Shown in pieces: positions 7,401 through 34,525 of a stretch of DNA of 34,525 nucleotides (its first letter is position 1; each line of letters opens with the position of its first letter). The translations under genes and the position numbers were made by a program. This DNA comes from Verrucomicrobiales bacterium (GTDB lineage: Bacteria; Verrucomicrobiota; Verrucomicrobiia; Verrucomicrobiales; DEV007): NCBI GenBank assembly GCA_029213065.1, contig JARGPH010000046.1:1-34525 (forward strand). Direction: 5' to 3'. The notes beneath the pieces were generated by a model. That model was not told the origin of the DNA. It made no database searches and saw only the letters and a list, made by a program, of their open reading frames with translations.

Positions 7401-10400
7401 CGGAGGCTCCAATCGCACCGGCTCCGGCGTTCAGTGTCACCACAGCTGCCGTGACCGAAGTCGTGCCACCACCGTTAGTGATATCACCCGTATTGGCCGT
7501 TAACGTCGTATTTTTGTCATCCGTATCAAGACCTTCGACAGAAATGCTGCCACCGATGACTTCGAGATCGTAGTCACCTGTGCCGAGATCAACCGCGTCG
7601 ATATCGACGGCACCGCTTCCGGTCGTCGCTGTACCGATGGTGATTTTGTTAGATGAAGCCAGCGTCGCCAGCTCATCATCATCGAGATTCAAGTCGCCAG
7701 CTCCGCCTCCAAGTCCAATTGTTGAAGTGTCATCCTGAGGACGGATGAAAACTTCACCTGCACCGGAGTCGATCGAGGAAGTGGCATCAATGACCGCATC
7801 AGCAGCGACGATTGTAATCGTGCCATCATTCGAAGCAGTGCTGACGACCGCGCCTGCTACCGTGATGATTTCGTCAGCGGCATCGACGTGCAATTCATTA
7901 AAGACATTGCTACCCCGGAATTCGACATCAGAATCCGAATCGGACTGTGCGTGAAGATAAGTCACTCCCGCAACACCGACGCTGTCGTCCGCGCCATCGA
8001 CGCGAATCAGCGCGGTGTTATTGTCCGCTGAATCCGGATCACCGATATGGAGATCCTGTGCCGTGATTCGAGCCAGCTCGTCCTGTCTGATACGCATGTC
8101 GCCAAAGGTGCTTCCCTGGAAGACCCCGATGGTGCCCGTCGTGCTACGCGAAACGGTCACCACGCCCCCGGCGGCGCTGACACTGCCATCCAATGCAAGG
8201 TCGGTCCCGCGCAAGTCGACCGTTCCGCTGGTGGCGGTTAGAGTTGTGCCGGTGGACGTGTCGATGCGTGCCTGATGATTGATCACCGTGATCCCACCTC
8301 CGTTGCCGACCGTAATATCTGCGAGGTTGGCAACGCCAGTTCCACCGGTCGGCGTATTGACTTCAATCCGCACTGCGTCCGGATCGGTGCTGTCGGAAAC
8401 GATGCCGGCACCGGATTGCATTGTGAAAATCTGGGCGCCATCCCCGTCGAGGTTGGCGGCAATATGCAGGCGGCCCTGACCGTTCACCGTGAGCGTTTCG
8501 TTGGCATCGATGCGCACAAGATCGTGACTGTCGATGTCGATCAATCCGCTTCCAACATCGAAAGTCGTCGTATCAATGATGATGTTGGCAGCCCCACCGC
8601 CGTCGTTGCTCAGGTTCGACACAGCCACGGTTCCACCGTCACCGGTTGTCAAATTCCCACTCAGGAGCACATCTCCGGAGCCAGTCCCGATGCCCGCATT
8701 ATTAACCGCGAGATGAATCGCATTGGCACCGGTATTCGAGGTAGTCAGCACTGCGTCGTTGAGGAGCAAATTACTAACCCCATCTCCATCGCTGTTAGCG
8801 ATCACCGAGATAGTCGAAGCTCCCGCGAGAATCGTTCCTTCCAGCGTGACTGCTGCCTCTCCGTCCACCTGAACGGTGACATCGCCAGCTCCGGCAGCCT
8901 GGATCGTCGTTCCGGCCAACTGTGAGATCGGCCCCTCGCCGTCGACATCGATGTCGACCGTTGCGCCGGATCCTGTGGTAATATTGGCGATATTCGCACC
9001 GGCGTTCCCTGTCGCGAGCACATGGTTCACGTTGATATCGACGGCGTTCGCACTCGTCGAATCGGTCACGATCGCAGATCCGGGATCCATGTCGAAGCCC
9101 TGAGCCCCGGCACCGTCCTGCCCGGCATTGACGACCAGATCGCCGCTACCGATCATGGTGAGAGTTTGATTCGTATTGATTCTCACGTAGTCCTCAGAGT
9201 TGAGGACAAGTTGCTGAGTCGCCCCGCCAAGAGTCACGGTGACGTCGTTGACGAAAAGGTTGGCACTATCGGCTCCATTGCCACCAAGCGTTGATGCCTG
9301 AACGCCACCACCGGATGTAATGATTCCCGCCAATGTCAGATCCCCTCTTCCATCGCTCGCTCCATCAGCGTTGGCGCGAAGCGAAATCGCGTCCGCATCG
9401 GTGTTGGTGGATATCAGTTCAACCGTGTCGTGAAGCAGCAGAAATTCAGTTCCGCTACCGTCGCTGTTCGCTATGGCCAGGAGTTTTGAACCTCCGGTGT
9501 TGATCACACCTTCGAGGTGCAGAGATCCTTCCGAGTCTAGATTCACTGCGACATCCCCGGCTCCTCCGTTCGAAGCGATCACACCGTCATCACTGAGGCG
9601 CAGCGTCCCGGCACCGTTTAAGTCTACGTCGACACCGGCACCGTCGCCTGTCGTAATGGATCCCAGCGTGATGCCTGCATTGCCGCCATTGGCATTCAAA
9701 ACAGTAATGGTTACGGCATCTGACAAAGTACTGTCAGTAACAATCGACGCACCGGACTGCATATCAAACCCCTGGCTTCCCGTGCCATCCTGTCCGGCTT
9801 CAGCAACCAATTTTCCGCCACCGGTGAGAGTCACGGTCTGACCACTGAAAATCCGGATCATGTCTTCAGAATCCAAGGTTATCTCCTTACCAGCTCCAAG
9901 AGAAATGTCAGTGTTCCCGGAGAAGAAAATATTGGTTTGGTTAGCTGGAATGCCGTTACCGGTCAGGTTTGAAACCGCAATGCCACCGGCACTGTTGAGA
10001 TTACCTGACAAGCTTAAGTTACCACTGCCGGTTCCGCCTGTCGTATTGGTGACAAGGGAGATGGCATCATTATCGGTATTGGTGCTGTTGAGCGACGCCG
10101 TCGAATGAACGGTGAGGCTTTCATTTCCTGATCCGTCGCTGTTCGCACGGGCGTTGATTTTGCCGTTCCCTGCGTTCACGGTGCCCGACAACGTGATTGC
10201 GCCGACTGCATCCAGAATCACGTTGACCTCACCATTGCCTACCGCGTCAATCGTGGAGCCATCGCGATGCTGCAGGGTACCCGTCCCGTCGACGTCGACG
10301 GTGATGGTTCCGCCGTCACCTACTGTGACGTTTTCCAAATCCGCACCTGCCGTCCCGCCGAGGACATTAATCTTCACCGCATCAGCGGTCGAATTCGCCA

Positions 10401-13400
10401 CCGAAATCGTTGCACCGGCTTGCATGTTGAACCCCTGATTTCCACTGGCATCCAATGCCGCATTGGCAGTGAAGGTGCCGTCGCCAAGCAATTCGAGAGT
10501 TTGGCCAGCAATGATTCGAATCCAGTCACTGGCATCCAGCTGTATATCAGCGTTGGTCACTTCGAGATCACTGACGAAGATATAGGTCTGATTGTTGCCC
10601 GAATCACTCACTGCGGTTACCGAAACCTTACCCCCGGCTCCGGTCGACATTTCTCCGGCAAGATTGATAGAACCACTGCCGCCGGTGCCAACTCCGGAAT
10701 CATTCACCGTGAGGGTGATTGCATCCGCAGTCGTGTTGGTGGTATGCAGCGCTGCCGTGGTTGCCATATCGATGCTTTGCGCTCCGTCCGCGTCAGTATT
10801 GGCATCCAAATCAATCAGTCCGCTACCCGCATCGACGACTCCGGTGACGCTGAGTGCATCGTCGGCATCGATCACGACATTGCCGCTTCCCGTGGCGGTG
10901 ATATCGCGGGTGGTCAGGGTGCCACCGCTGTGATGAGTGACCGTGACGCTTCCATCAATCCCCGTGATGATGCCCGGGAGTATAGAATTGGCTGAACCGC
11001 CATTTTCGTTGGTGACGAGTTCGAAGCTCGCTCCGGGATTGTTCAACGTCAGGGTGTGGGCAGCGTTGTTATTATCGTATCCAGTGCCACCTAGATCGTT
11101 AGTGTTCGCTTCGATGCGCACCGAGCCGTCTACCACGACGCTACCTGTCTGGTGAATTCGGCCACCGCTAAGTAGAGTTAGATCGTAGCCCGATCCGGTC
11201 AAATCGAGGTCACCGATCCGGAAGGGGGTGCCTCCAAGCGTTGAGTCCGTGCGTCCGATCGTCACCGTTCCGCTGATGCTGAGATTGTCGGTCAGCTCCG
11301 ACGCGCTCAAATGGAGTCCGCCGGTTGTATCGCCGACACCAATTGAGGAATTTTCCTGCTGGGCAAAGGTCACGTTCGCTGCGGTCAGAATCGCAGTCCC
11401 CGCACCACTGTCGAGCGACACATCTCCGCTCTGAATCGACACATCGCCGGAGAAGGTTGCGTTACCTGCGAGAGTAACGACATCATTGCCGCTCTCACCG
11501 GTGATTACAGTAAGGTTGGTGACATTGTGGTCGTTGTCCACCTCGTTGATCGTCACTGAGTCGTTGCCGTCGGCGGTACCAGTTGACGTATTGATGATGA
11601 CATTAATCGTGTTGGAAATAACTGCTGTCTCGATCAGCGTTCCACCATCAATGGTCCCCCCTACGACCAGAGCATCCCCGGAAGGACCTGTGCCTTCAGA
11701 AATCGTCAGGGCATCGTCGTTGCCGGTCGTAGCAACCGTGACCGTCATGAAATTATCATACTCAACCGGCTCGAGACCCGTGAAGTTGATCGTGCTCGTA
11801 TCACCACCGCTGGTGATGATCACTTCTCCTGAGCCAAAGGTAGTCGCACTCGGAGTGTAGGTAGCTACCTCGCCACCCGAACCAAGGAAACGCAAGGTGT
11901 CGGAGTCGTCGTTGCCCTCGTAGTTGACACTCCCTGTGATATTTGCCAATGGATCGCCATTGCTGTAGTCGATCGTGACGAGATCGTTACCCTCCAGTGC
12001 ATCAATGTTGATGTCAGTCACGCTGGCCGCCGGACGGCGACTTTGCACCACGCCGTTGACAGTCGTGACCAGGCTGGTCGAGTCCGACGGATCAAGGCTG
12101 ATGACGACGGTGTCATCGTTTGCCGTAAGAACCGGAGCAAGGGGGCCTTTCACCGTAATGACAACATCGTTCCCGTCACCGCCGGTGTAGGAGATGTAGG
12201 CCTCGAGTCCACTGCCAAGAAAGTTTGGGCTGATTTGATCTCCGCTGCTCAGCCCGTCGAACAGGTCGTCGACGGCCACATCAGTGCCATCGTTGAGGAT
12301 GACTACGAACTCATCGTTCGCGACCGGTGTATAACCACTCGCAGTGTTGGAGAACAGCAAGCTTCCAATGCTGGCAACATCGAGATCACCTGTGAAATTG
12401 ATCTGATCGTAGGTTGAAGCGTCGGTTACATCGAAGATATACGCGCCGTCGCCCGCCTGAAGTTCGGTCACCGAGATCGTGCCCACTGCATCGGTTTCAC
12501 CCGGAGTGAACTTGCCGCCGCTTTCGACATAGATTGCCGCCGTCAAGGCACCGTCACCCTTGAGGACACCGCCATTTTTCACCGTTACCGAAGCAACCGT
12601 TTCTGCAGAATCGGCATCAAGAGTTGCGCCGTCTTCGATAACGATCGCATCGCTGTTGTTGATGACATTATCTGTCGGAAGTTCGAACTCTCCGCTCTCA
12701 AACGTCACCGTAGCGCCGGCCGCATTGATGCCGCTCACGGCGATTCCATTTACGGTGGTGAGAAATTGATTTCCTGCCGTCAGTGTCGTTAGCGTTGCCC
12801 CGTCGACAACCACTCCGGTGCCACTGACACCAATGTCACCCGCAAGGGTGATCAGCGTCACATTCTCCGCCTGGAGATCGTTACCTCCACCGACACCGGT
12901 AATACCACCGGTGCGCGCCGTCACTTTGAGATCATTCGCGGCTCCGACATTCAGGTCCTCAACAGAAACCGATCCGCCAATCACTTCGACACCGTAGTCA
13001 TAAGCCGGATCGCTGAGATCGAGCGCATCAACGTCAACAGTTCCGGTTCCCGTCTCGCTGCCGATGATCAGGGCTGTTGCCGGATTCAACGAATTGATCA
13101 ACCCGATATCCACGAGCAAATCGCCCGTGGCACCGGCACCCAGTCCGATATCACTGGAATCAGTGGCTCCCTGAATACGAATCGCTCCGCCAAAGGCTTC
13201 GACGATGTCTTCGCCGACCGGATTGCCGTCGATCTCCAATTGGTCTGCCGCAAGCGTGATGTTACCTGCGGTCGAATGAATTTCCGCACTCCGATGCAGG
13301 AAAATGCCTTCCTGCGATGTGCCGGTGACGACGATGTCTCCGGTGGTGGTCAAAAACGTGGCACTGTTGTTCCCCGAGACGTAAACCCCGTAGTCACCCG

Positions 13401-24346: not shown

Positions 24347-25408
24347 TCAGGAATCCGGCAGAGCGGCCCTCGTTCTGTCAGCGACAGAATCCCATGAGAA
24401 ACCGGAGGCATGCGCTATCGCGTTTCTGCTCATCTGGAGGACGAGAGACGGCGCCATCTCAAGGACACGAACGAGAGAATCTGCTATATCATTGATGCTC
24501 AATGGATCAAAGTAGAACACAGCGCCTTCTGAATCGTCCCCGGTCCGCCCGTTGAACTCAATGCCCCCCACTTCGGGAAGGCTTGCCGCATGAGAGAGCA
24601 GAACCGGACATCCGCAGGCCATCGCTTCGAGAGGCGGAAGACCAAATCCCTCGTAAAAACTCGGAAAGACGAAAGCCGTTGCGCTTTGATAGTGCTCGAT
24701 CAACGCTTCATCGCTGACCCGGCCCAACCAGGAGATTCCCGGAAAGTCCTTTGCTTCAAATCCGGAGAAATTGGTGGGTTTTGCAGAACCAATGATCTTG
24801 AGCCTGGCATCCTCCGGCAGTTTTCCGGAGTCAGACAACTGAATCCAGGCATCGACGAGCCGGTTGAAATTCTTTCTCGGATCGAGTGATCCGACGCAGA
24901 GTATTGTCGGTGTGGCCACCGCCTTCGGCTGGACCGGAGGCTGAAACGAGGATGAGGCAGCGTTGCCGAGGACATGAATCCTCTCTTCGGAGATGCCCAG
25001 GTAGCGGGAAAGACGTCCGCGCGAGAATTCGGAGACCGTTCCTACCGCGGCAACGCGTTTCGCAAGCGCGGGCAGGAGTTGGCGGTAGAGCGTTCCAAAC
25101 TGACAGCTGAAGGCCTCAGGGTGGTCCCAGACGGCGGCATCGTGAATCACAACGAGCTGATTCCTGACAGTGAGAGGACCCGTGTTGCACGGGGAAAACA
25201 AAGTCGATCCCGTTTCAATCTTCCGGGGAAGAACCCACTGCTCCCAGGCATGACCACGCAGCCCCGCCAACGGTGCTGATGGCTCTATCTCCGCCACTTC
25301 CGCGCCTGTTCTCGCGGGAAGGCGTTTCACCACCTCGATCGCGAAGCGTTCCACTCCGGTGACAGGACGGTGGCGAAACCGGGCATTCAGGGTGAGAGGA
25401 CGGCTCAT
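24347..25408 (-). CDS. GT4-family glycosyltransferase (exopolysaccharide)
   Basis: 353 residues, normal for a GT-B fold GT4 enzyme. It transfers a sugar from a nucleotide-sugar donor to the lipid-linked repeat unit on the cytoplasmic face. The donor cannot be predicted. The C-terminal donor domain shows GSLDPRKN (173-180), the usual loop before the donor helix, and the EX7E motif E253-GFGLPPL-E261 inside SFYEGFGLPPLEAMACG. The N-terminus is short (MSRPLTLNARFRHRPVTGVER), with the TGVER acceptor-side loop that several rhamnosyl- and mannosyl-transferase-like GT4 proteins have. The ATG is part of an ATGA overlap with the stop of the upstream polymerase gene (25,405-25,408), so translation is probably coupled. 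It is the last gene of the minus-strand arm. Confidence 0.9.
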   Translation of the reverse strand: MSRPLTLNARFRHRPVTGVERFAIEVVKRLPARTGAEVAEIEPSAPLAGLRGHAWEQWVLPRKIETGSTLFSPCNTGPLTVRNQLVVIHDAAVWDHPEAFSCQFGTLYRQLLPALAKRVAAVGTVSEFSRGRLSRYLGISEERIHVLGNAASSSFQPPVQPKAVATPTILCVGSLDPRKNFNRLVDAWIQLSDSGKLPEDARLKIIGSAKPTNFSGFEAKDFPGISWLGRVSDEALIEHYQSATAFVFPSFYEGFGLPPLEAMACGCPVLLSHAASLPEVGGIEFNGRTGDDSEGAVFYFDPLSINDIADSLVRVLEMAPSLVLQMSRNAIAHASGFSWDSVADRTRAALPDS

Positions 25409-26724
25409 GGGGCGGGGCGCACTGAGGATGGATCAAGCGAGGGCCTCGAACGGAATCTCAATCGGCGGGGCAGAAAAACAGCCCAGACAACGAGGAGGCA
25501 GATCACCAATGTCGTCGGCACCACCCTGTTCGTACCGAACCAGTAGTGAATTCGAATGATCTCCATGAGCCCGAGAAAGTTGATCGGGAAAAACAGCCCG
25601 AAAATCCGCCCTTCCCGGAAGGCCTTCCAGACCACCCCGTAGAATGCTCCCAAAGCGGCTAAGAGAGGAAAGAAGAGGACATTGCCCGTGTAAGTCGCCA
25701 GATACCAGATTCCCGAGGGATTGTTGAACTCGACATCGAGGCTCGCCAGATACAGCCCTTTGTAGATGTACTCATACTCATCCTCCGAAATCGGAAAGGT
25801 CAGCCCGTCGTAGAAGCCCGAGATACCGAGAGTGGCCGAGCCCGTGTTCATCGCCTCAAAATAATAGGTGAAAAGCCGCAGCCACCCGAACTGAAACAGG
25901 CTTCCGTGCTGAGCTCCATAGTACTGCCACGACCGGAAGTATTCAAAGACGGTAAAGACGACTAAGAGAAGCACGGGAACGATCAGGGGAAAGAACTTCA
26001 TGAGCGTCCGCATCCAGGGCCCTGTCAGTCGGATCACTTTCGGCAACGCGCACAGGAAGAAAGGAACGACGCCTTCAATAAGCGCGAGTCGCTCCGACCA
26101 GAGCATCGCGCGGATGAAGAGCGTCCCGAAGAAGACAAGGTGAAATGCGGAGATCAACTTCACATTCCCCGGAAGAACACCGCCCCAGCGAAGCCCGCGC
26201 AAGGCCGCAAGAACCAGTGAAACCTGAGTCCAGGTCGTGACCCCCGGTATCGTTTTGAAGGTGTGCTTCAGCTCGACATCGCCGCCGAGAACGCTCATCG
26301 CCATTCCGGGATTGAGGAAGAAACCACGAAAAAAGATCAGGTGGGAAACCAGAAAAACGACGAGGAGAATCTTATCAAATTTCTCGGTAAGAAACGCCTC
26401 ACTGATTCGACCGTGAAACCGTGTCCCCTCAACGAGCTGGTTTCCCGATTTCACCCAGTGGCGCGGAACCAGGCGGGAAAAGACACCGGTCTCCCCCAGC
26501 AGTGCTCCTGCCGCGAGAACCAGTATCGCCAGAATCCCGAGCACCGTATCCCGACTCCCGTAAAAGAGTTGAGCTGAGGAGAGTGACAGTGTGCTGTCGG
26601 CATTGGCGAATAGCAGAAGAGCGGGAAGCGAAACCCCGAGCAGGAACCGGGAGGGCCGGTACCACCACGGGAGATTCAGCAGGAGACCGGGGCCGCCACT
26701 GAGTTGATGCCGTCGAGAACTCAA
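25405..26724 (-). CDS. Wzy-like oligosaccharide repeat-unit polymerase (membrane protein)
   Basis: 439 residues with about nine or ten hydrophobic segments (for example 27-41, 60-77, 117-136, 189-206, 213-228, 244-261, 343-365, 374-390, 401-418). The longest soluble stretch (~262-342) contains EYFRSWQYYG and LFTYYFEAMNTG, and SERLALIEG sits at 210-218. This layout and the motif positions fit the O-antigen/exopolysaccharide polymerase class that joins lipid-linked repeat units in the periplasm. Sequence conservation in this class is low, so the call rests on topology and on its place between flippase and glycosyltransferase. The start is TTG at 26,724, overlapping the flippase stop as TTGA; a GAGG ribosome site 4 nt upstream supports it, and the first Met in frame is only at residue 142. 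Confidence 0.78.
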   Translation of the reverse strand: MSSRRHQLSGGPGLLLNLPWWYRPSRFLLGVSLPALLLFANADSTLSLSSAQLFYGSRDTVLGILAILVLAAGALLGETGVFSRLVPRHWVKSGNQLVEGTRFHGRISEAFLTEKFDKILLVVFLVSHLIFFRGFFLNPGMAMSVLGGDVELKHTFKTIPGVTTWTQVSLVLAALRGLRWGGVLPGNVKLISAFHLVFFGTLFIRAMLWSERLALIEGVVPFFLCALPKVIRLTGPWMRTLMKFFPLIVPVLLLVVFTVFEYFRSWQYYGAQHGSLFQFGWLRLFTYYFEAMNTGSATLGISGFYDGLTFPISEDEYEYIYKGLYLASLDVEFNNPSGIWYLATYTGNVLFFPLLAALGAFYGVVWKAFREGRIFGLFFPINFLGLMEIIRIHYWFGTNRVVPTTLVICLLVVWAVFLPRRLRFRSRPSLDPSSVRPAP

Positions 26725-28058
26725 TTTTCCTCTATTGTTTTGGTTTCGCGGAATAAACTAACAAACACCCATATAATCCCAACCACTTCCTCGAGAAGGT
26801 AACTCGCCATGATCGCAATGGCCATTCCTATTCCTCCGTAAATCGGAATCAGCAACATCGAGATCGCAACGGTGATAAAAAGCTTAAAAACCCCTGACAC
26901 CGCCAGAAACCGGGTATTTCCGGTCATGACAAGGAGCTGATGGACCGGTCCGATGAACATGGAAACGAGACTGCTGATGAGAAGCCATCTGAGCGTCACC
27001 GCTCCCTCACGAAAATCATCCCCGAAAACAGACATGACCCACTCCGGAAAGAGGATTCCAACCATAGCGGGCACGAGTAGAATGCCGAAGGTGAAAAAGG
27101 TCGATTTGGCATAAACCTTAAAAACCCCCTTGAGATTCCCCTTCAAATCAGCAGCGCAGGAGAGTTGCGGAGCAAAGACGCCGTGTATGGCTGTAGCGAG
27201 CACTGATAGAAGGATACTGACCCGGAAAGAAGTCGTGAGATGGGAAATCTCTGCCGGCGAACGCGAAAATTCCAGAACGGCGAGAGGGACGACATAGCAG
27301 AGGGCACCCAGTGCATTGGATGAAAAGATCGGAAGTCCTTCGGAAAGAGCGGGACGCGACGTGTTCCAGTCAGGCACAGAGAATATACGCCCCCTCACAA
27401 GGCGGGTCGGTCCGAAGCGAACAACCGCTACGGCAATCACGTAAGCACTCGCATAGATGGTCAGGAGCAGCGGCGAACTGAGGTGGGTGAGGTTGATAAC
27501 GATCAGGAAACAAAAGAGACTGACCGGAACAAAATGCCCGAAGAAAACCCCGGAGGCCGGCTTGGAGAGCCCCTTGAGCGCTTCCCCGTTGACGACACAC
27601 ATCGCCATCGCCCCGAGAGTGAGCGGAAGAAGAAAATACCAAACGTGAAAATGAATCCCATCCGCTCCCCCTTTGAGATAAGCATACAGAATCAGGCCGA
27701 TGCCAATTGCCAGGGAAAGGGTCAGGCTGATTCCGCGAATCGTCGTAAGGTATCCTGTCAGTTTGTCAGGGTCCCCCGCCGCTTTAAGGCGCGGGACATT
27801 TCTCAGGACGAGATGTTCGAGCCCGAAGGTTGCCACGATCGCGAAGGACGTGAGAACAGCAGACCAGAAAAAGAAGGTGGAACTTCCCTCATCCCCGAGA
27901 AATCGAGCTATGAGCACTGTGCTCAGGAACTGCACCGCCGCCCCCGAAAGCCGAATCCCCGGAGGAAGAAAGACACGAAAGAACCTCTGGAATAGCGGAG
28001 GAAGTTTGAATTTCCCGTCAACGATAGCGGGCATGACCTCTGATTTTACGGAATTCAT
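26721..28058 (-). CDS. Wzx-like polysaccharide flippase (MOP/MATE superfamily)
   Basis: 445 residues with twelve or more hydrophobic segments, the usual size for Wzx. It moves undecaprenyl-linked repeat units from the cytoplasmic to the periplasmic leaflet. Typical elements are FLSTVLIARFLGDEGSSTFF (44-63) in the first helical pair, ERLKxx-like charged loops (RNVPRLKAAGDPDKL, 86-100), MSVFGDDFREGAVTLRWLL (342-360) and LLVMTGNTRFLAVSG (375-389), all of which have clear counterparts in exopolysaccharide flippases. The ATG at 28,058 follows the Wzz-like stop by 20 nt; a second ATG at 28,034 is possible. Its stop overlaps the polymerase start (TTGA). Confidence 0.9.
   Translation of the reverse strand: MNSVKSEVMPAIVDGKFKLPPLFQRFFRVFLPPGIRLSGAAVQFLSTVLIARFLGDEGSSTFFFWSAVLTSFAIVATFGLEHLVLRNVPRLKAAGDPDKLTGYLTTIRGISLTLSLAIGIGLILYAYLKGGADGIHFHVWYFLLPLTLGAMAMCVVNGEALKGLSKPASGVFFGHFVPVSLFCFLIVINLTHLSSPLLLTIYASAYVIAVAVVRFGPTRLVRGRIFSVPDWNTSRPALSEGLPIFSSNALGALCYVVPLAVLEFSRSPAEISHLTTSFRVSILLSVLATAIHGVFAPQLSCAADLKGNLKGVFKVYAKSTFFTFGILLVPAMVGILFPEWVMSVFGDDFREGAVTLRWLLISSLVSMFIGPVHQLLVMTGNTRFLAVSGVFKLFITVAISMLLIPIYGGIGMAIAIMASYLLEEVVGIIWVFVSLFRETKTIEEN
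26729..26733 (-). promoter_or_regulatory. Shine-Dalgarno site deciding a TTG start
   Basis: On the minus strand AGAGG is followed by four A residues and then TTG. It lies inside the 3' end of the flippase gene and is the clearest ribosome binding site in the polysaccharide locus. It supports the TTG start of the polymerase, which has no ATG nearby. Confidence 0.65.
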
Positions 28059-28078: not shown

Positions 28079-30070
28079 TCAGCCCTGCATGATCAAGGAG
28101 AGCGGGGCACGGGCACAGCCGGCAAGCCTTGTCACAACGTGGTTGGTTTCCTTCCTCGTATCGCGCTCTGTTGAGACGATGAGCAGATTCGAATCGGCAA
28201 ACGAAGTCAAGACTGCGGGCACCTGAGAATCCTGCTTCACCGCAGTGCTTTCGATGACGATACGTTCAAAATTCTGACAATGTGGACCGATGAGCTGCCA
28301 GGCACTGTTCGGTGCGACAAGGAAATCGGCTGTAAGTGTCAGGGTAAACAGATTCTCGGTATTCGATTCCCGGGGAACGAATGAAACGAGCTCATTCGAG
28401 TTGGTTCCCGCCAGCACGGAGATAAGAAGCGTGCTGCACCCGTGTCGTGCCGAGACCGCGGCAAGGCATGCCGAAGTCCTCAGACCTTCCTGACATTCAG
28501 ACACGGATGAGACGTGCACGAACCTCGCCTGCCGGTGCTCGGGCGAATAGAATACTTTGGAAAGTTCGCTCATGAGCTGCTGGTCATTCTCCGATCCCAC
28601 GCCGGGGGCGGGAATCCGGGCGATGGTTTTCACGTTGAGATACTCTTCGGCCTGACGCCCGTCGACATACGGCCGCCCCCTGAGCAGGTCAATACCGACG
28701 AGTCCGACACTGAGAAAAGACCCGAGAACGCCGGCGATGAGAACCGAAATGGTTTTGCCGGGTTTAGCAGGTTTGTGAGGGACAATCGGAGCCGACATCA
28801 CCGTGGTGATAGCTGACGACTTTTCAGTGGAAAGCGATGTTTCCCCTATTCTCGCCTGAAGATTCTGATGAACGAGCCACTCCGTCTCAACCTTCTGCTG
28901 AATGGCACGGAATTTCGAACTCGCGGATTTCACTTTAGAAAGCACTCCCTGCAACTCGCTCACCTCCGCCTTGAGAAGCTTCTCGTTATACTCCGCAGCA
29001 TCGAGCGAGGAATCGAGCGCCGCTTTCAACTCAGTGGCAAGATTCTTCAGCTCCTCGTCCGCATTCTCAACCTGAAGTTTTGCCTGCAGGTAACTCGGGT
29101 GTGACTCGGTGAATTTTGATTTTGCGATCGCAAAGTTCGAGTTCGCCGTTGAGCGTTGCCCCATTACATCGGAAACCTGCTTCAACCCGGAGAATCCGCC
29201 TGCCTCAATGACCCGAATCGGCTCAAGGGCGGGATCAATCGACGCGAGTGTTCCGACACGACTTTTCAAATCGAGGACTCTCGCCGTCGCTGAATTCAGA
29301 TCCTGGCCCACTTTACTGAGGCGTTCCGCAAAGAGTTCGTGATCCTGCTCGACTGTGAACTCGGGATTGGCACTTCTGAACGCTTCCAGCTGCTTCTCCG
29401 ACTCGAGGGCCCGCTCGTATGCCTCTTCCGCTTGAAGCCTCAGTCCTTTCTCAGAAATACCGGCCTCATTGCGCTTTTGCTCGGCGAGAAAGAGCTCAAA
29501 CTCTGAAACAAAAGTTTCCGCGATCAGTTTTGCACGCTCCGGGCTGGGATCGAGAACGGTTAGCTTAAGGAGACGGGTCGGCCGAATCAAAGAGGCACTG
29601 ACGCGCTTGTCACGTATTGAAGAGAGAAGGCGGGAATCCGAGACGGTTTTCCCTTCTGCAATCCTCTTGCGGAGTGACTTCGGCATAAAGTCAGGCTCGT
29701 CACGGAGGTTCAATTTGTTTACCACCCGCACAATCATCGAATCGGAAGTGATCGCTTTCTCCAGCGAATTGAGAGAATCCAAATCTGAAGAGGAAGCCTG
29801 AATGTTTTCGATCTGCAGCGTTTTCTCAAACTTGGGATCGACGTAGATCAGTGCGGAACTCGAATAGAGAGGCACCGCGATCGTGAAGAGATACACGATT
29901 GTGAGGACAACACAGAGAAACGGGATGGCAACAAGCCACCAGAACCGTCGCTTAACGATGCTGGCCAAATCCTTGAAATCGAGGAGTGGCGGCACTTCAA
30001 CCATATCCCAGGGCTCTGTGCGAGCTGCCGGAGACATAACAGGAGTTGTAGAAAGAGAAGTCGAATTCAT
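28079..30070 (-). CDS. Wzz/GumC-like chain-length protein with degenerate BY-kinase-like tail
   Basis: 663 residues, longer than a plain Wzz. It sets polymer length and couples polymerisation with export at the inner membrane. The first membrane segment is at ~44-66 (WWLVAIPFLCVVLTIVYLF), followed by the Wzz N-terminal fold, a long coiled-coil periplasmic part (~200-410), the APIVPHKPAKPGK loop (427-439) and a second membrane segment (~440-462). Residues ~515-663 align in layout with the cytoplasmic BY-kinase/ParA-like domain of polysaccharide co-polymerases. However, the P-loop position reads HVSSVSECQEGLRTSACLAA instead of a GxxGxGK(S/T) loop, the Walker A' position is TLLISVL instead of VLLIDAD, the Walker B-like strand is FERIVIESTAV, and no C-terminal Tyr cluster is present. 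So it is probably a catalytically dead pseudokinase domain. It is the first gene of the minus arm; no Shine-Dalgarno is seen. Confidence 0.88.
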   Translation of the reverse strand: MNSTSLSTTPVMSPAARTEPWDMVEVPPLLDFKDLASIVKRRFWWLVAIPFLCVVLTIVYLFTIAVPLYSSSALIYVDPKFEKTLQIENIQASSSDLDSLNSLEKAITSDSMIVRVVNKLNLRDEPDFMPKSLRKRIAEGKTVSDSRLLSSIRDKRVSASLIRPTRLLKLTVLDPSPERAKLIAETFVSEFELFLAEQKRNEAGISEKGLRLQAEEAYERALESEKQLEAFRSANPEFTVEQDHELFAERLSKVGQDLNSATARVLDLKSRVGTLASIDPALEPIRVIEAGGFSGLKQVSDVMGQRSTANSNFAIAKSKFTESHPSYLQAKLQVENADEELKNLATELKAALDSSLDAAEYNEKLLKAEVSELQGVLSKVKSASSKFRAIQQKVETEWLVHQNLQARIGETSLSTEKSSAITTVMSAPIVPHKPAKPGKTISVLIAGVLGSFLSVGLVGIDLLRGRPYVDGRQAEEYLNVKTIARIPAPGVGSENDQQLMSELSKVFYSPEHRQARFVHVSSVSECQEGLRTSACLAAVSARHGCSTLLISVLAGTNSNELVSFVPRESNTENLFTLTLTADFLVAPNSAWQLIGPHCQNFERIVIESTAVKQDSQVPAVLTSFADSNLLIVSTERDTRKETNHVVTRLAGCARAPLSLIMQG

Positions 30071-30211: not shown

Positions 30212-31618
30212 ATGATTACGAGCCGTTACCATGGAGTGATTCGACTTCACTTTGTTTTGAAACTCGCGGGCGGCCTCATGATTTTCTGGGGCCTTGTCTG
30301 GGCGCTGCACTTCCTCGTTTATGGCGAGGAGCTGCTTCCCAGCAATTATCACTACATTTCACTTCTGATTCCGTTCGCCGCGTTTCTCGAGATGGCGATT
30401 CGTGACAAATCCTCCCGCTCTCTCTGCGGTGTTTCCCGTGCCCAAATATGGAACATCACGCAGCGGGAGATTCTTTTCGCTCTTGTCGCGATCTTCGGCG
30501 TCATTGTCATGAGCAAGGATCCCGCCCTGTCCAGAGTGTTTCTGGCGACCTTCATGCTTCTCTATTCCTCGTGGATCGCCTGGATGAATCAGGTCGGGCA
30601 CCGGATTCTTCAACGACGTCTCTTCAGCTCCCGGAGTCGGCACGCCAATACCATCGTTGTTGCTCCGCCATCGAAAATCGAGAGAGAAAACGTCCTCCAG
30701 ATGACAGGGAACCTTCCCGGCGCCGAGCTACTTGGCTACGTCCCCTACGGAGGCGCTGCCGCGATCGATATTCCCAGTTTCCCCTTTCTGGGAGACTTCG
30801 ACAACATCCGTCAGATCTGCCGCTCCTACCACGCCAAACTCGTTGTTGCCCTGGGGCTTGATAACAATCCCTCACTCGTGAAATCACTGCAGGAAATCTG
30901 TGACTCGCAGGGAATGAGACTGATCTGGGTGGAGGATCAAAAGGAACGGTTCGGCGGTAATATTGACTCTCACCAGTCGGGTTCACACACCTATCTAACG
31001 AACTGGCAGGAAGCACTTGAAGACCCTTTGAACCGTGGCATCAAACGCGCCTTCGATGTCTTTGCGTCAGGACTTGTCACCGTGTTAGTGCTTCCCATTC
31101 TCTGTGCAGGTGTCTGGATTCTCCATCGACTCTTTTCTCCCGGCCCCCTCTTCTACACGCAGCAGAGAACGGGACGAGATGGCGAAATCTTCGAGATGCT
31201 GAAGTTCCGGTCCATGAAGGTCAATGACATGCCCGGCGTTCAGGCGAAGGTGAACGATCCGAGAATCTTCAAAGGCGGCGATTTCCTTCGCAAGAGCAGC
31301 CTCGATGAAATGCCCCAGTTCTTCAACGTCCTCAAAGGCGAGATGAGCATTGTCGGTCCCCGCCCCCATTTCATTGATCACGATGAGAAGTTCGCAGAAA
31401 TCGTCAAGAGCTACCCCGTTCGTCAGTTTGCCAAGCCGGGAATCACCGGGCTGGCACAGGTGAAAGGATGCCGCGGCGAAACCGATACCGAGCGCAAAGT
31501 GAGACAACGCGTCAGATTCGATCACTTCTACCTCCGTCACTGGTCCCCTCTCCTCGATCTCTGCATCATTTTTGATACGGTGGTTCAAACCATTTTTCCT
31601 CCCAAATCAGCCCGCTGA
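30212..31618 (+). CDS. Polyprenyl-phosphate sugar-1-phosphate transferase (initiating enzyme)
   Basis: 468 residues, the length of WbaP/WcaJ/GumD-type enzymes. It starts repeat-unit synthesis by moving a sugar-1-phosphate from a nucleotide sugar to undecaprenyl phosphate. The N-terminal part has membrane segments (~14-36, 47-62, 86-100, 106-126), followed by a soluble nucleotide-binding-like region (~145-245). The C-terminal bacterial sugar transferase domain begins at [11 protein letters not shown] (277-287) with the re-entrant hydrophobic helix (~284-305). It continues with [15 protein letters not shown] (310-324), MLKFRSM (329-335), [20 protein letters not shown] (364-383; the Asp-Glu pair 365-366 is the catalytic dyad) and [11 protein letters not shown] (409-419). 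All key motifs are intact. The sugar (glucose, galactose or an amino sugar) cannot be read from the sequence. It is the first gene of the plus arm, 14 nt before the next. Confidence 0.95.
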
Positions 31619-31632
31619 AATCCCACCTCAAA

Positions 31633-32805
31633 ATGTCCCCTCTCACTTCTCTAAAATCCAATATCGCTCTCGCTCACGACTTCCTCATCCAAATGGGTGG
31701 GGCCGAGCGCGTCGTGGAAGTCATGGCGAAAGCCTGGCCCGACGCGCAGATCTATACGAGCGTTACCACCGGGGAAAGTCTCTTCCCGGTCTTTCGAACC
31801 GACCGTGTTCACAACAGCTGGATGCAGATGATTCCCGGGATCGAGAAGCTCCATAAAATGCTGTTCTTCCTCTACCCGCTTGCTTTCAAATCTCTGAAGG
31901 TCCCGAAAGACAGCCTTGTCTGGATCAGCTCGAGCAGTTTCGCGAAGTGCCTCCCCAAGTCGAAAGGGAGCACCTTTGTCTGCTACTGCCACACACCGCC
32001 ACGCTACTTCTGGAACCCGGATGAGTACCTGAGAAACGAGATCAGCAATCCCCTCCTTCGCAAATTCGTCCGCAAGCTGATGCCCCTCTACCGACGCCAT
32101 GACTGGAGGCAGGCGCAGAAAATCGACTACTTTATCGCCAACTCTGTCAACGTGCAGAAGAGGATCAAAGAGTGTTACGGCAGGGATAGCGTCGTGATCT
32201 GTCCTCCCGTCGATGTCAATCGCTTTACGGTGGGCAATCGCAGCGAAGACTTTCACCTCATCGTCTCGCGTCTCGTGTCCTACAAGCGAATCGACCTCGC
32301 TGTCGAGGCGTTTACGAAGGCAGGAAGACGTCTCGTCATCATCGGTGACGGTCCCGACCGCCCGCGGTTGGAAGCACTCGCCGGCGACACCGTCGAGTTC
32401 CTCGGACGTGCTCCCGACGATGTCGTGACAGAGAAAATGGCTACTTGTCAGGGGTTCATTTTCCCCGGTCTCGAAGATTTCGGGATTACCCCGGTGGAGG
32501 CTCAGGCTTGCGGGAAACCGATCATCGCCTTTCACGGGGGCGGAGCCCTCGAGACCGTCGTTGATGGCAAAACCGGGGTGTTCTTCAGCGAACAAACGCC
32601 CGAATCGGTCATCGAGGCGATCGCGAGATTCGATGCGGTGGAATGGAATAGAGAAACGATCCGCGCCAATGCAGAGAGATTTTCAACGGACCGCTTCCTG
32701 AAGGAAATGACTGAATTTCTCGAAGGCATCGAAGGCGCTGAAAAAGAGAAAAAGCCAAAGGAAACGGCGGCTCTTTCGCAAGCTGCTACCACCGCTCTCT
32801 CGTGA
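31633..32805 (+). CDS. GT4-family glycosyltransferase (WbaZ/mannosyltransferase-like)
   Basis: 390 residues, GT-B fold. The N-terminus SNIALAHDFLIQMGGAERVV (9-28), with its GGAERV acceptor loop, is typical of a GT4 branch that includes WbaZ-type mannosyltransferases. VCYCHTPPRYFW (116-127) is also characteristic of this branch. The donor side has VSRLVSYKRIDLAVEAF (211-227), the VIIGDGP loop (235-241), and the EX7E motif E281-DFGITPV-E289, followed by EAQACGKPIIAF. It probably adds the second or third sugar of the repeat unit; mannose is possible but not proven. The last ~25 residues are a charged, low-complexity tail. It overlaps the next gene by four bases (GTGA). No Shine-Dalgarno is seen before the ATG. 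Confidence 0.9.
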   Translation: MSPLTSLKSNIALAHDFLIQMGGAERVVEVMAKAWPDAQIYTSVTTGESLFPVFRTDRVHNSWMQMIPGIEKLHKMLFFLYPLAFKSLKVPKDSLVWISSSSFAKCLPKSKGSTFVCYCHTPPRYFWNPDEYLRNEISNPLLRKFVRKLMPLYRRHDWRQAQKIDYFIANSVNVQKRIKECYGRDSVVICPPVDVNRFTVGNRSEDFHLIVSRLVSYKRIDLAVEAFTKAGRRLVIIGDGPDRPRLEALAGDTVEFLGRAPDDVVTEKMATCQGFIFPGLEDFGITPVEAQACGKPIIAFHGGGALETVVDGKTGVFFSEQTPESVIEAIARFDAVEWNRETIRANAERFSTDRFLKEMTEFLEGIEGAEKEKKPKETAALSQAATTALS

Positions 32806-33869
32806 TCAAAAAAGGACTCACAGTCGCGTACATCCTCATTGCGACTGGATGCGCCACGGCCAAAGGCGAAGACCTCTCTCTTGGTGCCTACTACTACCCG
32901 TGGTATCACAGCGACGGACGCCACTGGGAAGACGGCTACAACGGACTTTCGCAGGGGCTCAAACCGGCCCTGGGTGAGTATTCATCCCGCTCCGCAAAAA
33001 CACTCGTGAACCACATCGAATGGTCGAAACAACTCGGGATCGATCACTGGATCTGCTCGTGGTGGGGCCGGGGAAGCTGGGAGGACGAAACCCTGAGACA
33101 CCATGTAGGACCCGCCCTTGAAAGCTCTGCCCCGGCAGCTCCGAAGCTCTGCCTCTTTTACGAAAGCCCCGGGACACTCTCATTCGATCCTGACAAGGGT
33201 ATCAATTTCGACCTCCCTCAGAATACGAGACAACTGGTTGAGGATTTTGACTACCTCGCCCGGCACTACTTCAACCAACCCAACTACCTGAAAATCAACG
33301 GTCGGCCTGTTCTCTACCTATACCTTTCCCGAACCTTCACCGGAGACTACGAAAACGCGATAGCCCTCGCCCGAACCGCAGCGCAGGCACAGGGATTTAA
33401 CCCGTTCCTCATCGGAGACGAAGTCTTCTGGGGTGCCCCTGACACACACCGAATTTCATGCTTCGATGCCATCACGGCCTACAATATGCACGGTCCCGCG
33501 CACTTCGCCGAACTCAGTGACTGGAACATTTTCCTCGAAGAAACCGAAGCGGTCTACGCCAACTACCGGGAGATCGCGAAGTCTCTGAAAGTGGGATTCA
33601 TTCCCGGGGTTCTACCCGGCTTCGACGCCCGTGATGCCTCCGGAGACTACTACGTGATTCCCCGCTCGCTGAGTCCTCAATCAGCCCCCGGCTCAACCCT
33701 GAAGGCGTTTCTCGATCTCGCCCGTCGCCAGACAGACCCGGACCTGAAAACCATCGTGATCACCTCGTTCAATGAGTGGCATGAAGGCACTCAAATCGAG
33801 CCCCGGAAAGAGGATCTTCCGCTCTCCCCCTTAATCCCAGAGAGCGCCTCTGCGATCGACAGGAACTGA
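32802..33869 (+). CDS. Exported GH99-like glycoside hydrolase
   Basis: 355 residues. The GTG start at 32,802 overlaps the stop of the glycosyltransferase (GTGA). The N-terminus (MIKKGLTVAYILIATGCATA) is a signal peptide; Cys17 could be a lipoprotein cysteine, though the lipobox is imperfect, or cleavage could follow ATA. The mature part has LGAYYYPWYHSDGRHW (27-42), GIDHWICSWWGRGSW (79-93), INGRPVLYLYL (165-175) and ITSFNEWHEGTQIEP (320-334). The EWHE pair, Glu325 and Glu328, corresponds to the catalytic glutamates of GH99 endo-alpha-mannosidases and mannanases. It most likely cuts or trims an alpha-linked glycan in the periplasm or outer envelope, perhaps the polymer made by this locus. That substrate link is inferred from operon position. 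The 3' end overlaps the convergent transferase gene by 39 nt. Confidence 0.85.
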   Translation: MIKKGLTVAYILIATGCATAKGEDLSLGAYYYPWYHSDGRHWEDGYNGLSQGLKPALGEYSSRSAKTLVNHIEWSKQLGIDHWICSWWGRGSWEDETLRHHVGPALESSAPAAPKLCLFYESPGTLSFDPDKGINFDLPQNTRQLVEDFDYLARHYFNQPNYLKINGRPVLYLYLSRTFTGDYENAIALARTAAQAQGFNPFLIGDEVFWGAPDTHRISCFDAITAYNMHGPAHFAELSDWNIFLEETEAVYANYREIAKSLKVGFIPGVLPGFDARDASGDYYVIPRSLSPQSAPGSTLKAFLDLARRQTDPDLKTIVITSFNEWHEGTQIEPRKEDLPLSPLIPESASAIDRN

Positions 33870-34525
33870 TCCCCTATCCACCGCAGCGCCCGCTATTGCG
33901 AATGACGCTGAGCAACCGCGTTCGCTCTCAAACTCCGGCATCGGAAAAACGTCAACGACCTTCCTGTTCTGCTTCGCCAATATTCTGGTTCGGTAAGAAC
34001 CGCGAAGGCCCTGAAGAACGGGCTCAACTATCTCGACCTGATCGGGTGGAATCTGAAAGCCCGATCCTATCGCCTTGAGAATTGCCTCTTTCGCAGTCCA
34101 GAGCCGACTGAGAGCGAGCTCCTTCGCCTGCCCATCAAGCTCCTTCACCCACGCCGCCTCGTTCGGGGTGCATATATTCCGGATCAAAGGAGCCATTCTA
34201 ACGTCCCCCGGCGAGAGCGCTTCGAGATCCACTCCGATTTCCAGATTCGGTGACACGCCGATAAGAATGTGGGTCCCACTGTGGGCGAGATTAAAGCGAT
34301 ACGCCCCGCCTGCCCCCGCTTCTGCCTTTAAAAAAGGCTTCCCGAAACTGCCGTAGGCAAACTCGACCGCCCCTGCTTCGATGCTCAGAAGCGAACCGAG
34401 GAGATGACGGAGCGACCCTCTCGCAACCACATACTGCCTGCGGTCTTTCTCGAAATGAAAACTGTCAGCGCGCAAACGCTCCTCCTCCGAGAGAACTGAT
34501 TCGCATGCCGCAAACCGGTCCTCCG
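33831..34525 (-). CDS. Sfp-type 4'-phosphopantetheinyl transferase (5' end beyond window)
   Basis: It moves the phosphopantetheine arm of CoA to a serine of carrier proteins in fatty-acid, polyketide or nonribosomal peptide synthesis. The frame stays open to the right edge, and its upstream residues (RFAACESVLSEEERLRADSF) match the usual N-terminal part of the family, so the true start lies outside. Key motifs, numbered from the TTG at 34,475: the FEKDRRQYVVARGSLR segment (8-23), the FNLAHSG segment (61-67), GVDLE (81-85; Asp83 and Glu85 bind magnesium) and WTAKEAILKAIGSGF (126-140; Lys129 and Glu130). All are intact. No carrier-protein or synthase gene is visible in this window, so its partner is unknown. 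Its stop lies within the 3' end of the GH99-like gene on the other strand. Confidence 0.92.
   Translation of the reverse strand, partial: EDRFAACESVLSEEERLRADSFHFEKDRRQYVVARGSLRHLLGSLLSIEAGAVEFAYGSFGKPFLKAEAGAGGAYRFNLAHSGTHILIGVSPNLEIGVDLEALSPGDVRMAPLIRNICTPNEAAWVKELDGQAKELALSRLWTAKEAILKAIGSGFQIPPDQVEIVEPVLQGLRGSYRTRILAKQNRKVVDVFPMPEFESERGCSASFAIAGAAVDRGSVPVDRRGALWD

Follow-up and report, generated by a model that had tools for sequence, protein, structure and literature searches.

A Wzc-like polysaccharide co-polymerase of a Verrucomicrobiales bacterium with a predicted BY-pseudokinase tail

How does a polysaccharide co-polymerase (PCP) use a kinase-like tail from which the catalytic residues are missing? 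The question is raised by a 34,525-nucleotide stretch of DNA from a Verrucomicrobiales bacterium (contig JARGPH010000046.1; the window hereafter), whose source genome has 5.9 Mb and is 96% complete. ORF calling placed the gene at 28079..30070 on the minus strand, encoding 663 aa, and we found that it is a Wzc-like (PCP-2) polysaccharide co-polymerase gene with a fused kinase-fold domain; by analogy, the protein probably takes part in the control of chain length or export. A preliminary description had given 28079-29620, which is part of a real ORF but covers only residues ~151-663, the C-terminal part of the full gene. Its naming of the product as a polysaccharide co-polymerase is borne out by the Wzz Pfam match and the fold match of the tail to BY-kinases. 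The gene and its domains are as follows.

28079..30070, minus strand: Wzc-like PCP-2 gene with a dead kinase domain (ORF, Wzz Pfam match, orthologues)
29711..29983, minus strand: TM1 and Wzz domain, residues 30-120 (Pfam PF02706, E 3.2e-11)
28697..28888, minus strand: GNVR region running into TM2, residues 395-458 (PF13807 sub-threshold; alignment to Wzc 7ni2)
28082..28675, minus strand: cytoplasmic tail with a predicted BY-kinase fold, catalytic motifs gone, residues 466-663 (AlphaFold2, Foldseek and VIA-align)

The Wzz domain expected of a PCP-2 is present, with PF02706 over its cut-off, and the GNVR region aligned with that of Wzc, its PF13807 match (E 0.0022) reaching 18.3 bits against a cut-off of 27.7. 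NCBIfam returned chain-length determinants and Wzc/Etk kinases, all far below their cut-offs and none with a best stretch extending past residue 498, while a Pfam search of the tail gave no kinase or AAA match.

The neighbouring genes place the PCP in a polysaccharide locus, in which the WcaJ-type transferase, a GT4 and the WbsX/GH99-like gene are divergent from the PCP, and the flippase, the membrane protein and another GT4 lie downstream of it.

26721..28058, minus strand: Wzx-type flippase (PF01943 Polysacc_synt in 3/5 family members, best 7.3e-10)
25405..26724, minus strand: conserved membrane protein, candidate Wzy polymerase/ligase (by position only)
24347..25408, minus strand: GT4-type glycosyltransferase (PF13692, 8.4e-24)
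30212..31618, plus strand: WcaJ-type initiating sugar-phosphate transferase (TIGR03025 over cut-off; PF02397, 6.8e-58)
31633..32805, plus strand: GT4-type glycosyltransferase (PF00534, 1.6e-25)
32802..33869, plus strand: WbsX / GH99-like protein (PF16317, 2e-13; PF14307, 8.4e-13)

The window copy of the flippase itself had no PF01943 match in Pfam. For the candidate Wzy (25405-26724), Pfam gave nothing on the window copy and only DUF7859 (E 0.04) in 2/5 family members, a PDB-sequence search with its product gave nothing useful, and its AlphaFold2 model had a pLDDT of 42.6. By gene content, the locus is Wzx/Wzy-like, with its Wzy member a candidate, and it is largely conserved: among the 14 loci other than the window in clade A, to which the window PCP belongs, we found Wzx-like genes in 13/14, Wzy-like in 13/14, WcaJ-like in 13/14 (2 of them cut), GT_24 in 12/14, GT_31 in 11/14 and WbsX-like in 3/14, some absences falling at contig ends and one locus (L055) being without Wzx, WcaJ and GT_24 within the stretch fetched. 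The two OPX matches of the window genome (C2:334813 and C2:335950) and its four LMW phosphatase matches are all outside the PCP locus.

Two genes at the margins of the locus deserve mention. A Sfp-type phosphopantetheinyl transferase (33831-34475, minus strand) lies at the locus edge, with a similar ORF near 1/14 orthologous loci. A giant open frame (1-23298, minus strand, at least 7766 codons) runs off the contig and adjoins the polysaccharide locus; its matches to beta-helix and Calx-beta domains, along with one to PATR below threshold, make it surface- or adhesin-like. It was rejected as a partner, with no similar ORF at the 14 orthologous loci.

The relation of the tail to kinases emerges from structure. 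In a phmmer search against the PDB, the window PCP matched Wzc 7ni2 (E 4.8e-6) chiefly via GNVR/TM2, and since the tail piece 583-646 contributed 1.3 bits only, kinship with kinases is unproven by sequence alone; a tail profile against the CapA1B1 chimera gave a weak, sequence-only E of 0.019. AlphaFold2 was run on an alignment of window residues 466-663 and five orthologues, and the best of five models had a pLDDT of 86.8 and a pTM of 0.87 (pLDDT 86.2, 79.2, 69.1 and 44.7 in the other four). With this model, the best 50 Foldseek matches listed from the PDB were all BY-kinases, headed by 3la6 (E 2.2e-9). VIA-align superposed the tail on CapAB 2ved with Z 20.5 and rmsd 2.5 over 191/198 residues, on Wzc with Z 20.0 over about 192/198 residues and on VpsO with Z 16.3, the first match that is not a BY-kinase being ArsA (Z 12.0). 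The structure prediction called for in the preliminary description thus returned a BY-kinase fold, predicted on the same chain as the PCP, and the Foldseek and VIA-align results on the model rule out a tail unrelated to kinases.

The catalytic positions of this fold were assigned by alignment to an intact Wzc of the same genus (L001).

28481..28510, minus strand: P-loop position, SSVSECQEGL, no Lys; the Lys547 position is Gly529 (alignment to L001)
28400..28429, minus strand: Walker A' position, LLISVLAGTN; Asp569 is replaced by Ser551 and Asp571 by Leu553 (alignment to L001)
28235..28261, minus strand: Walker B position, IVIESTAVK; Asp646 is replaced by Glu607 (alignment to L001)
28547..28576, minus strand: position of the EX2RX2R ring-contact helix, LMSELSKVFY, motif absent (alignment)

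The losses of the P-loop Lys, the Walker A' Asp pair and the Walker B Asp, all claimed from the first look at the sequence, are therefore confirmed. The claimed loss of the Tyr cluster needs a qualification: the last 45 residues of the window PCP indeed hold 0 Tyr, but intact sister Wzc of the genus hold just 0-2 in that stretch (9/9 rows), so that the dead protein does not stand out by its missing cluster. Provided that this near-absence is ancestral, the Tyr cluster dwindled first and the active site went later. Just past Walker A', the tail is also shortened. We searched for a P-loop elsewhere with the pattern [AG]x4G[KR][ST] and found no match in the window PCP or its close orthologues, which rules out an intact P-loop at another position. 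Among the features of an active BY-kinase, the Walker A Lys, the Walker A' Asp pair, the Walker B Asp, the C-terminal Tyr cluster and an EX2RX2R ahead of the P-loop are all missing, and the tail has what defines a BY-pseudokinase, namely a BY-kinase fold without the catalytic motifs. The Tyr cluster and EX2RX2R together are described as the octamer interface of CapB (PMC3795738).

The loss extends to a whole group of relatives. A protein search of 56 related genomes gave matches in 42, and five relatives in a named collection came from MAGs, four of Verrucomicrobiales and one of Verrucomicrobiia. The proteins related to the window PCP over the tail (PK1) number 26; the genus supplies 24 rows, and the other 2 (L035, L036) come from named Verrucomicrobia MAG contigs. 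In the survey of homologues for P-loop loss, Lys was absent in 26/26 PK1 rows and the first Walker A' Asp was found in 0/26; the Walker B position holds Glu in 20/26 and Asp in 6/26, these 6 belonging to other subclades than the window's. EX2RX2R was found in 0/26 PK1 rows as compared to 49/55 distinct Lys-bearing rows (three of the 59 'other' rows are repeats, and without them the count is 49/56). The tail is complete in all 26. The motif table used 58/74 rows collected; omitted were an antisense ORF, the repeat or cut copies L039, L073, L082 and L090, the class-level kinases L071 and L072, L093 and eight more intact Wzc rows of the genus. L034, L037 and L038, copies of L005, L015 and L013, were counted once.

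A careful tree of 46 rows was built on N-terminal columns with no tail, omitting long rows and the fragment L017, which is truncated at the start; a branch at 100/100 sets 25 PK1 rows apart from the others. In a quick tree of 107 rows on GNVR and tail columns with the motif columns removed, which includes L017, the 26 PK1 rows had SH-aLRT 100. An earlier quick tree of 53 rows, also without L017, agreed on PK1 and left the doubtful Lys-less L031 outside; this protein, with Lys replaced by Arg and the Asp residues kept, was assigned to neither dead clade. In the N-terminal trees, the closest intact group is formed by Wzc proteins of the genus itself.

Some genomes have more than one PK1 copy. 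Another member in the window genome (L044:7788-9791, contig C4), also without a P-loop, lies in a different polysaccharide locus that encodes a Wzx-type flippase together with a WecG-type transferase. In G023 (C294), two PK1 proteins of different subclades (L059:4990-6978 and 8943-10967) are encoded close together, and each gene adjoins a WcaJ-type transferase.

The tail profile matched in 21/33 genus genomes; in one of them (G004) the profile hit a kinase whose P-loop is intact, which leaves 20/33. This is a lower bound because the profile (A1), built from the window's subclade, missed distant PK1 members such as L044 of the window genome and L059:4990-6978 of G023. Among 384 genomes of the class, A1 gave 4 matches, 2 inside the genus and two weak ones outside it, to proteins with GKT P-loops; distant PK1 relatives outside the genus may have escaped a profile drawn from one subclade. 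GK[ST] was found in all 12 hand-picked PCPs from 11 same-family or same-order genomes, two of which proteins (L032, L033) were already in the row set.

The preliminary description had reasoned that polymer length would be controlled without tyrosine phosphorylation, or by a separate kinase. At the locus the second option finds no support: with an intact-kinase profile (E <=0.1, ORFs of at least 100 aa), no BY-kinase ORF other than the PCP was detected in 14 orthologous loci. The four TIGR01007 matches in the window genome are an intact fused Wzc (C2), a Lys-less PCP-like protein (C41), a ParA (C52) and a Mrp-type NTPase (C2), and a stand-alone BY-kinase for the locus was rejected accordingly. 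The suggested genome search for a stand-alone kinase and a phosphatase thus yielded only the latter, as the LMW phosphatase matches elsewhere.

All 20 of the tail-bearing genus genomes do possess an intact P-loop BY-kinase (TIGR01007 over its cut-off in 19/20, the best match in G023 being just below; GK[ST] in each). Together with the four phosphatase matches of the window genome, this is what one would expect if the dead tail were a regulatory partner in trans of the intact Wzc, the locus being controlled either through mixed oligomers or by the live protein phosphorylating the dead PCP. However, the intact Wzc of the window genome (C2) has a polysaccharide locus of its own, with an initiating transferase, glycosyltransferases and a PIG-L deacetylase; the dead tail has neither the ring-contact motif nor the Tyr cluster; and the authors of the EcpK study argue against dependence on active BYKs (PMC12004946). 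We therefore regard a role in trans as unlikely.

In the pairs open to measurement the tail is under purifying selection, and its constraint is looser than that of the live kinase. Estimates of dN/dS for the tail, rough since dS is mostly near saturation, range from 0.039 to 0.074 over six clade-A pairs; two clade-B pairs gave 0.19 and 0.09. For the window PCP and its nearest relative dS was not estimable; their identity is 50% in the tail and 64% in the rest. Looser constraint is indicated because the tail is the less alike part of its protein, whereas the live proteins resemble each other most in the kinase core: identity is 58% in the tail core and 64% in the periplasmic part in clade A (15 rows), as against 65% in the kinase core and 48% in the periplasmic part of intact sister Wzc (nine rows).

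Conservation within the tail is compatible with a different use of the old nucleotide pocket, which may have been rebuilt for another ligand or a peptide, making the tail a sensor and not a scaffold. Clade-A invariants (16 rows) include Arg513, His519, Ser540, Ser551, Pro566, Trp591, Pro596, His597, Arg603, Glu607, Thr609, Gln613 and Pro618; by alignment, those that differ from the residues of the kinase include Ser551 in the place of a Walker A' Asp and Glu607 and Thr609 in Walker B, with Gln613, Trp591, Pro596-His597 and Arg603 near these old catalytic positions in the sequence. The P-loop stretch, however, varies more than the tail does on average (entropy 1.30 vs 1.15; 0.56 vs 0.70 in the live kinase), unlike a conserved ligand loop, and the conserved residues may simply hold the fold, so that a sensor seems quite improbable to us. 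That the tail is a functionless relic on its way out is very improbable, since its looser constraint, the shortened stretch after Walker A' and two broken-looking copies from fragmented genomes (G012, G027) are outweighed by purifying selection, a confident complete fold, complete tails in 26/26 PK1 rows and a deep clade, and in the G012 copy not only the tail but also the periplasmic part is gone. That copy (L026:1498-2025) comprises the first ~174 residues only, and the one in G027 (L093:1495-2188) is a second PK1-like copy whose pieces are spread over two frames; both assemblies being fragmented, the copies are possibly artefacts, and they were excluded from the PK1 count.

Our preferred reading, to which we give a probability of roughly 0.72, is that the window gene encodes the Wzc-like PCP of a Wzx/Wzy-type locus, and that the BY-kinase domain of this PCP became catalytically dead a single time, in the common ancestor of its clade, and was then kept as a structural domain. 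What was observed for it is the fold, the clade-wide loss of the catalytic and ring-contact motifs, shared ancestry and constraint; 26 related proteins without the Lys, forming one clade under purifying selection, are not a single decaying gene. The retained pseudokinase proposed in the preliminary description is thus well supported by the fold, by motif loss in 26/26 rows, by purifying selection and by one clade at 100/100. In the published model, Wzc alternates between dephosphorylated octamers and phosphorylated monomers (PMC8285477). On its own, a PCP with no catalysis, no Tyr cluster and no ring contact is unable to go through this cycle, and from its sequence it would follow that no phosphorylation by the window PCP is needed to set polymer length. 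In the mechanism we propose, the periplasmic part would assemble the oligomer that sets chain length, this oligomer would couple to an outer-membrane OPX channel encoded elsewhere, on contig C2, and the tail may form a cytoplasmic base or a docking surface for partner proteins. Assembly and disassembly would proceed without drive from the PCP's own tyrosine phosphorylation, because no catalytic site, Tyr cluster or EX2RX2R ring contact remains. By analogy, we infer a docking base: the tail is most likely the structural or docking domain of a co-polymerase with no self-phosphorylation.

Proteins of this kind have been described before. PMC12004946 presents EcpK and HfsB as BY-pseudokinases proposed to be scaffolds, and lists fused PCP-2/BY-pseudokinases from Cuthbertson et al., including S. 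meliloti SMc01795 and V. vulnificus VV1_2305. As described there, the latter two resemble the window PCP in joining a transmembrane/periplasmic PCP to a dead BY-kinase domain in one polypeptide, but belong to other phyla. PssP2 of Rhizobium leguminosarum (PMC4182512) is likewise reported as a fused PCP whose kinase-fold tail is without Walker A, A', B and the Tyr cluster; unlike the window PCP, it is described as having 586 aa, a short periplasmic domain and a reported Pfam AAA_31 match in the tail, where the window tail has none. Loss of the last 153 residues of PssP2 is said to alter the EPS size profile, with the abstract, results and discussion of the paper differing on the direction of the change. 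EcpK/EpsV (Myxococcus xanthus) and HfsB/HfsA (Caulobacter crescentus) likewise pair a PCP-2 with a BY-pseudokinase as a proposed scaffold independent of phosphorylation. EcpK resembles the window tail in being reported without Walker motifs and C-terminal Tyr residues, although EcpK and HfsB are separate proteins whereas the window pseudokinase is fused. In EcpK the domain is also reported to be missing its first strand and its first two helices, so that loss of ring helices may not be unique to PK1. Wzc, Etk, CapAB and VpsO share the predicted fold of the tail, and Wzc and Etk its domain order as well; unlike these BY-kinases, the window tail is without catalytic motifs, Tyr cluster and EX2RX2R. 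Since stand-alone and fused BY-pseudokinases have already been published (EcpK, HfsB, PssP2, SMc01795), PK1 is a new clade of a known kind, and the dead tail is real, old, constrained and of a type already described. The literature matches listed contain no paper on BY-pseudokinases in Verrucomicrobia.

We found a second dead family (PK2) of shorter PCP-like proteins, with 25 rows and open frames of 445-661 aa (median 574). Its Walker A Lys is absent in 25/25 (Arg in L115) and its Walker B Asp in 25/25, and the first Walker A' Asp is retained in 23/25, with Glu in 2. EX2RX2R is retained in 23/25 PK2 rows, compared to 0/26 in PK1. In the quick tree of 107 rows (GNVR and tail columns), PK2 is one clade at SH-aLRT 94 and groups at 100 with five Lys-bearing kinases from other genera, apart from PK1; the Lys was therefore lost at least twice. 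The PK2 member of the window genome (L045:1345-3000, C41) adjoins a HflX-like GTPase, with no recognised polysaccharide genes beside it. A tentative wider picture, rather unlikely to hold as a whole, would have one genus convert many of its PCPs to pseudokinases, among them 3/4 of those found in the window genome, by at least two separate losses, with PK2 keeping the ring motif and perhaps forming rings, and PK1 dropping it and rebuilding the active site (Ser551, Glu607, Thr609, Gln613) as a docking or ligand surface. In the passages of the BY-pseudokinase papers covered here, we found no description of such a contrast in ring motif within one genus.

A clade with the kinase fold and with neither catalysis nor ring contact, found beside intact Wzc in the same genomes, amounts to a natural experiment. 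A comparison of PK1, PK2 and intact Wzc could separate the contributions of fold, ring and phosphorylation to polymer length and export.
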